From positions 1 to 28,614 of IMG/VR virus record IMGVR_UViG_3300025264_000079: a stretch of DNA of 28,614 bases, one strand, 5' to 3'. Source of the DNA: a virus. Positions 24,767 to 28,310 of this stretch are shown here, piece by piece. Positions within the stretch are counted from its first letter, which is position 1; each line of letters opens with the position of its first letter. A program made the translations under genes and the position numbers. The notes beneath the pieces were generated by a model that saw only the letters and a program-made list of their open reading frames with translations, ran no database searches and was not told where the DNA came from.

Positions 24767-24846
24767 ATCATAATTTAGAGCATTCAGTAAGCAAGATAAC
24801 AGTAAATAAAGGTTTTAACCTGTTTTTATAAAAATCCGCGCATACT

Positions 24847-25018
24847 ATAGTATTAGCTTAGTTATATCAAATAGTAGAATAGTATTAGCTTATCTATATC
24901 AAATAGTAGTTAACAGGGTAAAAATAGTTATATAACTAAGCTATATCAAATAGTAGAATAGTATTAGATAAGCTATATATAACTAAGCTATATATAACTT
25001 AGTTATATAAAATAGTAT
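24847..25018. repeat. AT-rich direct repeats
   Basis: TATATCAAATAGTAG occurs exactly at 24863-24877, 24895-24909 and 24942-24956, with a weaker copy (TATATAAAATAGTAT) at 25004-25018. ATAGTATTAGCTTA occurs at 24847-24860 and 24879-24892, and as ATAGTATTAGATAA at 24958-24971, giving a first unit of 32 bases. The spacers also hold short TAAGCTATATA-type mirror pieces. The array lies directly before the small terminase operon, a usual place for packaging sites, but it could equally be operators. Confidence 0.7.
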
Positions 25019-25063
25019 GTAAAGAAGCCAATGTCAATAAAATAGTACCCGGACTCAAAAGAC

Positions 25064-25329: not shown

Positions 25330-25408
25330 CAGGCAGGCAGGTTGAAACTATCCATGCAGGCAGGCAGTCATCACCCTAGCCTACACCATGGCAGGCACCA
25401 AGGCAGGC
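25330..25408. repeat. GGCAGGCA cluster
   Basis: GGCAGGCAGG, ATGCAGGCAGGCA (25354-25366), ATGGCAGGCA (25388-25397) and AAGGCAGGCA lie within about 80 bases. ATGCAGGCAGGCA resembles the iteron ATGCACGYARGTA at 28088-28310, especially its last copy ATGCAAGCAGGTA. Confidence 0.45.
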
Positions 25409-25473
25409 ACACACACAGCACCCATATAAACAGCCATGTCAAATCAATTTAAATAGATGGGAACCTTCTCCCC

Positions 25474-25737: not shown

Positions 25738-26982
25738 ATGAATAATTATTTAAAGAAAATTAGAGAGTTATCTCTCTCAGACATCTTCAACATTCCGGTA
25801 GCGATACCAGACTGTTTTAAATGTGGAGTACCGCAAGAAATATTCCAGCATTTTAATGGTGTCGGTGTTTGTTATGACTGCTATGATGATTTACAAATCT
25901 GTAGTTATTGCGAACGCCGTTCATTAAATATTGATAACGGTATATGTGAACCATGCGCTACCAGTTCAGCCAGTATCCAAGGTTATGGACACAAACCTGA
26001 ACCAGTATTCCATAGGGTGAGAATGAATAGGATTAATACTCCGCCGTTGTTAACCGATAGACCTTATATCGTTAATGACAAAGGGAATCCCAATTATATT
26101 GCCCATTATGGAATAGAGATAGAAACCGATAGGCACCAAGGAACGGATGAATCCCCCACATACATGGGTCGACTCATTGCGTCCTTAGTGAATCTCATTG
26201 GTAAAGGTAGAACATCCAAGGAACAGTTACTCTATTCGAAGAATGACTGCACTTGTGCTGTTGAGATTGTATCTCATCCATTCTCGTGGAATTACTGGAA
26301 ATTGTACGGTAAAGAGTTATTCAAAACTTTAGTTCAAAAACTAAAGGATAATAACCTTTATGGATATAACGCCCATAATTCCGGGATGCACATACACGTT
26401 AGCCGTAAAGCCCTTAAAGTCTCGGATATTGTTAAAATGATGTCCTTTGTCTATAATCCGGATAATTTTCAATTTATCTTGGATATTAGCCAGAGACATC
26501 TATCTAGACTTGAAGAATGGGCTAACCCATGGATGAATGAAGATTCTTGGTGCAACCTTGTTAAAATGGCAAGGAATCACCAAGAAGCACGATACAATTC
26601 GTCACGTGACACGGCTATAAACCTTCAAAACAGGAACACGATTGAATTCAGGATATTCAGGGGAACATTAAATTTTATGTCCTTCTGTAAAAATCTGGAA
26701 TTTGTTCGCTCGCTCTGTTTATGGGTTAAGAATGTCTCTTTGGATGTGGCTAAAAATGGTGATGGGTTAACTAGTTATCTTTCTTTTTTAGAAAAGAATT
26801 ATAACGATTATGAAAACCTTTGCTATTTCTTAAGCCATCCGGAAGATGGGCGAAAGCAATACGGCGTCTACAATGTTGTAACTGAAAGATGGACACGGGA
26901 AGACCCGGATAACGTTAACAAGTTAAAGTTCAATACGGACAAAGGGAGTAAAGAAGATGTGTATAGCAATTCTCAAGCCTGA
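25738..26982 (+). CDS. amidoligase (COOH-NH2 ligase, GS-like fold) with N-terminal zinc domain, 414 aa
   Basis: The core matches the putative amidoligase family (Amidoligase_2): HYGIEIETD (residues 123-131), CAVEIVSHPFS (173-183), NSGMHIHVS (214-222) and IEFRIFRGTL (302-311). The acidic and His residues of these motifs are expected to bind ATP and metal as in glutamine synthetase-like ligases. The N-terminal ~75 residues add four Cys pairs, C26/C29, C45/C48, C55/C58 and C70/C73, enough for two zinc sites. It is predicted to join a carboxylate to ammonia or an amine using ATP. The next gene, a glutamine amidotransferase overlapping by 26 bases, would supply ammonia. GGAG lies nine bases before the ATG. 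The substrate (protein, peptide or cell-wall component) is not known. Confidence 0.85.
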   Translation: MNNYLKKIRELSLSDIFNIPVAIPDCFKCGVPQEIFQHFNGVGVCYDCYDDLQICSYCERRSLNIDNGICEPCATSSASIQGYGHKPEPVFHRVRMNRINTPPLLTDRPYIVNDKGNPNYIAHYGIEIETDRHQGTDESPTYMGRLIASLVNLIGKGRTSKEQLLYSKNDCTCAVEIVSHPFSWNYWKLYGKELFKTLVQKLKDNNLYGYNAHNSGMHIHVSRKALKVSDIVKMMSFVYNPDNFQFILDISQRHLSRLEEWANPWMNEDSWCNLVKMARNHQEARYNSSRDTAINLQNRNTIEFRIFRGTLNFMSFCKNLEFVRSLCLWVKNVSLDVAKNGDGLTSYLSFLEKNYNDYENLCYFLSHPEDGRKQYGVYNVVTERWTREDPDNVNKLKFNTDKGSKEDVYSNSQA

Positions 26983-27709
26983 TGGTGAAAACATCAAAAA
27001 AGACAGGTTAAAAACCTGTTTTTTCAACAATGATGATGGAGCCGGTTTCATGTTTGCCAAGGATGGAATACTTCATTTTTTCAAGGGATTCTTTAAGTTT
27101 AATGACTTTTGGAGTTCATACGTGAAAAACGTTGTTAAAAATGGTAATCCTATGTCAGCAATCCATTTTCGGATAAAGACACACGGTAAAACCAATGTTG
27201 ACAATTGTCATCCATTCAAGGTCAATGAAAACCTAGGATTCATTCATAATGGAGTTATAAACATGGTTAAACAGGACAACAAACGTTCTGATACAGCCAT
27301 GTTTAATGAATTGATTCTGAAGAAATTGCCGGATGGTTTCATTCGAAACGTGGCAATTGTTGACCTGATTGAAGAATCTATTGGAAGTTCTAAACTTGTT
27401 TTCTTGGATAATAAGGGACAATTCCTTATTTCCAATTCAACACTTGGAACGGCTCAATGGGATAACAATGTGTGGTATAGTAATAATACTTATAAGTACA
27501 AGTATACATACCATAAACAACCTGTTTACGGTTATGCCTACGGTTCAGATAGTTATCTAAAACAGAAGGGTAAAAAGAAGAAAAAGAAGTCTCTTCTTCC
27601 TGCTGTTTCTCATACTGCCTGCACCATGTGTAAAGCCCCATTAATCACCGTTTTTGAGCAAAAGGTAGGTTTTTGTGGTGGATGTGACAACAGGGGTTAC
27701 TCTAGTTAG
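26957..27709 (+). CDS. class-II glutamine amidotransferase with C-terminal zinc knuckles, 250 aa
   Basis: An N-terminal nucleophile hydrolase of the GATase-II type: Met1 is followed by the catalytic Cys2. NNDDGAGFMF (24-33), HFRIKTHGKTNVDNCHPF (70-87, with Arg72 and the HG pair) and GFIHNGVI (94-101, with the Asn98-Gly99 oxyanion hole) follow in the family order. The last 30 residues carry C222-x2-C225 and C240-x2-C243, a zinc module after a Lys-rich linker. It should hydrolyse glutamine to glutamate and ammonia. The start lies within the end of the amidoligase gene (26-base overlap), so the two products are made together and probably work as one enzyme pair. Confidence 0.88.
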   Translation: MCIAILKPDGENIKKDRLKTCFFNNDDGAGFMFAKDGILHFFKGFFKFNDFWSSYVKNVVKNGNPMSAIHFRIKTHGKTNVDNCHPFKVNENLGFIHNGVINMVKQDNKRSDTAMFNELILKKLPDGFIRNVAIVDLIEESIGSSKLVFLDNKGQFLISNSTLGTAQWDNNVWYSNNTYKYKYTYHKQPVYGYAYGSDSYLKQKGKKKKKKSLLPAVSHTACTMCKAPLITVFEQKVGFCGGCDNRGYSS

Positions 27710-27717
27710 ATAACAAA

Positions 27718-27739
27718 GGGGGCGGAGCAATTCGCCCCC
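27718..27739 (+). other. intergenic hairpin
   Basis: A perfect 7-bp stem GGGGGCG/CGCCCCC with loop GAGCAATT lies just after the amidotransferase stop. No T-run follows, so it is unlikely to end transcription fully. It may protect or attenuate the message before the 88-aa gene. Confidence 0.5.
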
Positions 27740-27760: not shown

Positions 27761-28027
27761 ATGTGGAAACCATTCAAAAAGGATGATGAAAAATACAGTG
27801 CTTACCAGACATGGATAACACAAGGTCATTTTCATTACCTTAAATGGGAAGTAATAGCAATGTTCAAGCCAGAGCAACGGTTCACCGTTAGAACGGTATT
27901 AAAAAACAATCGTAGACTTGGAACGCTACATGGTAATCGATTAGACCATGAGAAAGGTTCAAAAATATATAATTTACATGATATTTTTGAAATTGCTCGG
28001 TTTATCGAATACGGTGATGGTGGATAA
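27761..28027 (+). CDS. hypothetical protein of the amidoligase operon, 88 aa
   Basis: A small soluble protein with AAAGGA nine bases before the ATG. It has a charged N-terminus (MWKPFKKDDEKYSAYQTW), a middle with EQRFTVRTVLKNNRRLGTLHG, and an end with YNLHDIFEIARFIEYGDGG. The hydrophobic and basic pattern (RTVLKNNRRLG, then IYNLHDIFEIARF) suggests one small winged-helix-like or alpha-beta domain, but no family is recognised. It is the last gene of the operon before the terminator. Its link with the two enzymes may mean it is a partner or target; this is a guess. Confidence 0.65.
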   Translation: MWKPFKKDDEKYSAYQTWITQGHFHYLKWEVIAMFKPEQRFTVRTVLKNNRRLGTLHGNRLDHEKGSKIYNLHDIFEIARFIEYGDGG

Positions 28028-28034
28028 GAAAAGG

Positions 28035-28061
28035 GGGAGCCGAAAGGCTCCCTTTTTTTTT
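28035..28061 (+). terminator. intrinsic terminator of the amidoligase operon
   Basis: GGGAGCC, tetraloop GAAA, GGCTCCC, then nine Ts: a 7-bp GC-rich stem with a stable GNRA loop and a U-tract, eight bases after the stop at 28027. Confidence 0.95.
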
Positions 28062-28087
28062 GCCCAAAAATAAATATATATATTATT

Positions 28088-28310
28088 ATGCACGCAAGTA
28101 AGCAGGTAGGTACTATATTTTATGCACGCAGGTACTATGCACGTAGGTAATCAAAGGTATGCACGTACGTAAGTATACATCCTATGCACGTAGGTATACC
28201 ATATGCACGTAAGTACAATAAAAACATATATATACTGTATGCACGTAGGTACTTATCCACAAGTTATCCCCATATGTGGACAATATCTTAATAACTTATG
28301 CAAGCAGGTA
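28088..28310 (+). repeat. eight-copy 13-bp iteron array
   Basis: Consensus ATGCACGYARGTA. Copies begin at 28088, 28122, 28137, 28159, 28184, 28203, 28239 and 28298 (the last is ATGCAAGCAGGTA), all on the plus strand, with irregular spacing of 15-59 bases. A degenerate copy lies at 28101-28113. All keep ATGCA and the final GTA; direct orientation and strict core are typical of initiator-binding iterons. Confidence 0.85.
28253..28283. promoter_or_regulatory. DnaA boxes within the iteron array
   Basis: TTATCCACA at 28253-28261 is a perfect DnaA box (TTATNCACA). TTATCCCCA at 28264-28272 and TTGTCCACA on the minus strand (28283-28275) each differ by one base. Three sites within 31 bases next to an AT-rich tract suggest use of host DnaA. 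Confidence 0.65.

Follow-up and report, generated by a model that had tools for sequence, protein, structure and literature searches.

The window analysed here, that is, the whole stretch of DNA studied, is a linear virus record of 28,614 bases (IMGVR_UViG_3300025264_000079). Its left and centre are filled by leftward virion and packaging genes, including those for terminase, portal and major head protein, which were identified by PHROG profile searches. The virion genes show no DNA-level similarity to known phages, and the terminase is only ~25% identical to those of cultured phages. After 971 nt of non-coding DNA a rightward gene pair begins, for which a sequence-only reading had proposed an amidoligase coupled to a class-II glutamine amidotransferase (GATase). 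The pair and its downstream region contain the following features:

25738..26982, + strand: amidoligase gene, 414 aa, GS/GCS2-like COOH-NH2 ligase fold (profile, model and conserved residues)
25813..25956, + strand: putative N-terminal zinc-finger module of the amidoligase, four CxxC motifs (C26/29, C45/48, C55/58, C70/73)
26089..26727, + strand: catalytic core of the amidoligase, aa 118-330 (profile match at aa 163-324, conserved columns, strands and helices of the model)
26957..27709, + strand: class-II glutamine amidotransferase-type (Ntn) gene, 250 aa, Cys2 nucleophile (fold, profile and invariant residues)
26957..26982, + strand: overlap of the amidoligase and GATase genes, 26 nt (from sequence)
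27620..27685, + strand: putative C-terminal zinc ribbon of the GATase, CxxC-14-CxxC, aa 222-243 (from sequence)
27718..27739, + strand: strong hairpin right behind the GATase stop codon (RNA fold -19.5 kcal/mol, z -3.3)
27761..28027, + strand: ORF of 88 aa, codirectional with the pair, without a family match
28035..28061, + strand: terminator-like hairpin with a T-run (RNA fold -27 kcal/mol, z -4.9)

The 26-base overlap of the two ORFs and all amidoligase and GATase motifs quoted in the earlier reading are indeed present. That reading had also placed the pair in isolation between non-coding regions, which holds for the upstream side; downstream, it is followed by the 88-aa ORF, for which no family was found in Pfam and PHROG searches and which is probably co-transcribed with the pair, and by the terminator-like hairpin at 28035-28061, which would close the transcription unit. 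The window ends 0.9 kb beyond the GATase gene. Eight copies of TATGCACGYANGTA (0.08 expected by chance) are located just downstream of the pair at 28087-28310, and exact matches to the same sequence occur in 41 fetched loci, many of them from relatives of the window lineage, with 1-7 copies each. This array is iteron-like and perhaps represents an origin or a regulator site. Adjoining it, three DnaA-box-like 9-mers (TTATCCACA, TTATCCCCA and TTGTCCACA) lie within 31 nt at 28253-28283, which suggests a putative replication origin using host DnaA. The intergenic region 5' of the amidoligase gene contains AT-rich direct and inverted repeats of the ATATCAAATAGTAGAATAGTATTAGCTTA type and CAGG-rich short repeats (24822-25040 and 25330-25420).

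The amidoligase matches Amidoligase_2 (PF12224) in a single-sequence Pfam search (E=1.1e-7, 32.5 bits against a curated cut-off of 22), which bears out the predicted family membership, as well as PHROG 16683 (E=4e-19). A profile search of its core found no sequence-level match in the PDB. The AF2 model is confident (pLDDT 88.5) and its best Foldseek match was YbdK (2.9e-5), followed by PafA (6.9e-4) and glutamine synthetase (GS; 3.9e-3), with Dop among the top matches and plant GCL, a GCS2 protein like YbdK, also among the near ones; TM-scores are modest (0.35-0.40 for YbdK). YbdK, PafA, Dop and glutamine synthetase all belong to the GS/GCS2 superfamily, and the product of 25738-26982 is, by sequence profile and predicted structure, a GS/GCS2-fold amidoligase. 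The characteristic motifs are GIEIETD (aa 125-131), EIVSHP (aa 176-181), GMHIH (aa 216-220) and EFRIFRGT (aa 303-310). Residue invariance of both enzymes was assessed over 55-62 relatives, and the loss of ATP or metal residues considered in the earlier reading was not seen, the catalytic residues being invariant. Across 12 amidoligases G125, E127, E129, D170, E176, H218, H220, R253, N295, E303 and R305 are invariant, and an alignment of 62 sequences, from which GenBank-phage rows were omitted, retains E127, E129, D170, E176, H180, G216, H218, R253, N295, E303 and R305, with H220 nearly so. The N-terminal CxxC module resembles a LIM domain by a weak profile match (E=1.5e-4). At least two CxxC motifs N-terminal of the core were found in 118 of the 133 amidoligase relatives scored.

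The GATase contains Cys2 and the motifs HFRIKTHG (aa 70-77) and HNGVI (aa 97-101). Its assignment to class II by the earlier reading stood at the level of fold and family profile and failed at that of the single sequence, which scored below the Pfam cut-offs for GATase_6 (16.7 bits against 27) and GATase_4 (13.6 against 23), matched the glmS NCBIfam model weakly (4e-5) and retrieved nothing from the PDB with phmmer. A profile of the 58-sequence family alone reached GlmS structures in the PDB (3.2e-8). The predicted model (pLDDT 82) matches the glutaminase domain of GlmS (E=2.4e-7) and EgtC (1.5e-4). The residues C2, G30, R72, T75, G77, N83, H85, N98, G99 and D112 are invariant. Since the single-sequence Pfam scores are under the cut-off, the protein was classified, on the strength of its fold and residues, as a divergent relative and not as a member of Pfam GATase_6. 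The product of 26957-27709 is, on this profile and model basis, a class-II (Ntn) glutaminase-type protein with Cys2 as its predicted nucleophile. The C-terminal CxxC pairs of the GATase are present in most other amidoligase clusters and missing from cluster 0. Both genes are under strong purifying selection, with dN/dS of 0.04-0.10 in close pairs (0.08 for the amidoligase and 0.06 for the GATase against relative L010).

The association of the two genes was surveyed in viral contigs that were fetched separately by a profile of one protein or the other, the best 80 of each being kept and the partner being scored with locally built profiles. Because a profile built from all 12 GATases proved too diverse to scan the collection, narrower profiles were used; the survey covers near to middle-distance relatives, a part of all Amidoligase_2 proteins. 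An amidoligase is encoded immediately upstream on the same strand in 78/80 loci fetched by GATase alone, and a GATase immediately downstream in 72/80 loci fetched by amidoligase alone. Nine of the ten exceptions lie at a contig end, and in the tenth (L151) 374 nt remain. The order amidoligase to GATase is invariable among the surveyed loci, which span 37 amidoligase clusters at 50% identity and include no fused protein, and the gap between the genes across 141 pairs is mostly -32 to +3 nt (mainly -10, -1 and +1 to +3). The divergence of one protein correlates with that of the other (Mantel r 0.71, 0/2000 permutations), as expected of co-inherited partners. The pair is also adjacent in the cultured phages MEP401/402, Marvin and StenR_269, in the circular record ctgrD200 and in two gut phage contigs. 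The pair is thus close to an obligate two-gene unit, in line with the coupled two-enzyme system suggested from the window alone.

Where relatives of the window lineage extend further, the pair stands first in a block of early-type small genes (nucleases, Holliday resolvase-like) that diverges from the terminase and virion genes, and in OM43-type phages a primase, helicase and polymerase are encoded downstream. The location away from virion genes noted in the sequence-only reading is thus shared by relatives, in which the pair lies next to replication or early genes. Stretches of two relatives, G003 and G009 (L011, L017, L023-L026), encode nucleases, a resolvase-like protein, DUF932 and many small ORFs, and no DNA or RNA polymerase gene was recognised in them. 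In G009, a gene downstream of the pair encodes a small protein that weakly matches metzincin-type zinc proteases (L025, 12715-13203). A gamma-glutamyl cyclotransferase (GGCT) is present in all five window-lineage contigs >30 kb and also in contigs of 13.6 and 21 kb (G003, G005, G009-G012 and G045); it is absent from the window itself, which stops before such a gene would be reached. Among the other long contigs with the pair, outside the window lineage, 0/30 contain GGCT. A RimK-like ATP-grasp protein of the same family as phiEco32 gp80 and LUZ24 gp21 is encoded just downstream of the pair in 26/40 OM43-like loci. No such protein was found in the relatives G003, G009, G010 and G012, whose contigs may be incomplete (LUZ24 and StenR_269 controls positive), and no COOH-NH2 ligase (PF14395) was found in the window lineage (LUZ24 and phiEco32 controls positive, StenR_269 negative). 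By gene content, the window lineage appears to carry a reduced cassette consisting of the pair and GGCT, the latter as seen in relatives, with putative zinc-finger modules on both enzymes. Membership in a defence system was considered and rejected, as PADLOC models match neither enzyme nor GGCT.

The earlier reading had taken the system to be undescribed. The pairing of amidoligase and GATase in phages is already known, however: it has been noted in phiEco32/LUZ24-like, RIO1-like and UFV-P2-like phages, the cassette being traced to Iyer et al. 2009 through the papers citing that work, as well as in OM43 and Marvin phages, and either cell-wall modification against superinfection or nitrogen metabolism has been proposed. 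The phiEco32/LUZ24-type cassettes, of which the pair forms the core, were labelled peptidoglycan-modification modules that might block superinfection (PMC5498523; PMC11945000). The work on OM43 phages, in which the cell-wall hypothesis also figures, reported the pair from MEP401/402 and >30 viral genomes and referred to Iyer et al. 2009 as well as to the Marvin paper (PMC10580990). A literature search, with most subscription journals outside its reach, found no experimental test of these enzymes.

Like the window pair, LUZ24 gp18-gp19 and phiEco32 gp84-gp83 consist of an amidoligase directly upstream of a class-II GATase in the early region, and GGCT is encoded in the same phage, as it is in relatives of the window. 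LUZ24 and phiEco32 combine amidoligase, GATase, RimK-like ligase, GGCT and COOH-NH2 ligase, whereas neither the RimK-like ATP-grasp protein nor the COOH-NH2 ligase was found in window-lineage contigs. Furthermore, the amidoligases phiEco32 gp84 and LUZ24 gp18 (367 and 391 aa) contain no CxxC, unlike that of the window, and the GATases are far longer (510 and 676 aa) than the 250-aa protein described here. These differences (zinc-finger modules, short GATase and reduced gene set) are shared in part by Marvin and the OM43 phages, and the window pair has in common with that type the CxxC modules N-terminal of the amidoligase core and the GATase immediately downstream. MEP401/402 encode the same two-gene unit, with a 10-nt overlap, beside primase, helicase and polymerase, and a GATase 44-45% identical to that of the window, but the amidoligase N-terminus is longer, the GATase lacks the zinc ribbon and a RimK-like ATP-grasp gene is nearby in 26/40 of the cluster. 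Marvin gp105/gp106 are likewise an adjacent amidoligase and GATase with CxxC zinc-type modules on both; here the amidoligase is 26% identical to that of the window, the genes are separated by a ~80-nt gap and both are annotated as 'glutamine amidotransferase domain protein'. The fullest cassette among the phages examined is that of StenR_269 (L005, 4199-12357), in which an amidoligase, two different class-II GATases, two ligase-type proteins annotated or assigned as GS-like, an ATP-grasp protein and GGCT are encoded in one cluster. Outside such cassettes, the YbdK/GCS2 glutamate-cysteine ligases and PafA/Dop have the GS-like fold in common with the window amidoligase, and we know of no GATase partner for either family. 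The glutaminase domain of GlmS and EgtC share the class-II Ntn fold and catalytic residues with the window GATase, which differs from them in being a small stand-alone protein with an extra C-terminal ribbon and an amidoligase partner.

The explanation that we favour, with the balance of probability about even, is that the pair forms a two-subunit glutamine-dependent ligase that, early in infection, makes an amide from the carboxylate of a glutamyl group or a cell-wall peptide. The Ntn subunit would release ammonia from glutamine with its N-terminal Cys2, exposed by removal of Met, and the GS/GCS2-fold subunit would bind ATP and Mg, activate the carboxylate as an acyl-phosphate and join it to the ammonia. 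The two subunits, translated from overlapping genes, would probably act in a complex. Tight, ordered and overlapping gene pairs are usual for two-subunit glutamine-dependent ligases such as CarA/CarB and MurT/GatD, and it is because the genes described here show this arrangement that ammonia release by the Ntn protein and ATP-dependent amidation by its partner are favoured. The most likely target would be a glutamyl-type carboxylate of a peptide or metabolite, since a gamma-glutamyl carboxylate of cell-wall or small peptides fits both the GCS2-like folds and the GGCT partner, which is encoded a few kb away in this phage lineage and may act on the same gamma-glutamyl pool. A cell-wall peptide is the leading candidate, modified early in infection with a presumed benefit to the phage; a peptidoglycan target has been inferred in published work from gene context. 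Several observations count against this explanation: some enzymes of the class-II fold, such as the gamma-glutamyl hydrolase EgtC, are not ammonia donors, a small-molecule substrate does not explain the putative zinc-finger modules, and no amidoligase-GATase fusion was seen among the loci.

Since EgtC has the same fold, the class-II fold alone leaves ammonia donation and gamma-glutamyl hydrolysis undistinguished, and the strongest rival, in our judgement an unlikely one, involves no ammonia transfer. Here, the amidoligase would attach glutamate via its gamma-carboxyl to an amine, as do EgtA/GCS2 and PuuA, the Ntn protein would remove or trim this handle in the manner of EgtC, and GGCT would handle the released gamma-glutamyl compounds. 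Gamma-glutamylation and its removal are established in the EgtA/EgtC and PuuA/PuuD pathways, and the closeness of the amidoligase fold to the GCS2 proteins YbdK and plant GCL, the EgtC match of the GATase and the co-occurrence of GGCT in the window lineage are consistent with such a handle. However, both profile and fold place the GATase nearer to GlmS than to EgtC. Modification of proteins in a PafA/Dop-like manner, for which the zinc-finger modules would select a host or phage protein and host takeover would be served by amidation of an Asp/Glu side chain or C-terminus, or by its ligation to an amine, is quite improbable. It could draw on the rank of PafA and Dop among the best fold matches, the early-block location and the zinc-finger-type modules carried by both partners in most clusters, which suggest macromolecular recognition, but a common target is not visible with CxxC numbers ranging from 0 to 13 between proteins, and a neighbour survey within +/-6 kb of most pairs, in which absence is weak evidence, found no conserved protein tag or partner gene adjoining the pair. 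The zinc-finger modules on both partners might also be targeting devices that make the pair a phage macromolecule-amidating machine for specific host proteins or nucleic acids and not for cell-wall precursors. We regard this as a long shot and know of no virus with such chemistry.

Base modification and a general supply of nitrogen are less likely. Phages use amide-forming enzymes on modified bases and the zinc-ribbon-type modules could bind DNA, yet no base-modification genes were recognised with PHROGs and Pfam among 31 proteins scanned, mostly from the early region of the window lineage, and hypermodification of nucleic acids or bases is scarcely credible here. An auxiliary role in nitrogen metabolism, in which the pair would channel glutamine nitrogen to host amino-acid pools, was proposed by the authors of Phage-ZRK32, which encodes an amidoligase, a GATase, a glutathione-synthase-like protein and GGCT and reportedly promotes growth when nitrate or ammonium is supplied (PMC10945688). 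This effect is that of the whole phage and not of these genes (PMC10945688), phages that infect widely differing hosts have conserved the pair, and the window lineage showed no further recognisable nitrogen genes, which makes such a role very unlikely for the pair described here.

Annotation of amidoligase-GATase cassettes in phages dates back to 2009, and context has been the only basis for interpreting them. The results presented here define the minimal unit of this phage system, as its indivisible part consists of just two genes common to the 37 amidoligase clusters, the RimK-like ligase and GGCT being optional lineage-specific additions. This two-gene unit makes the question of what these phages amidate open to two-protein reconstitution, for which the zinc-finger subfamily represents the cleanest object.
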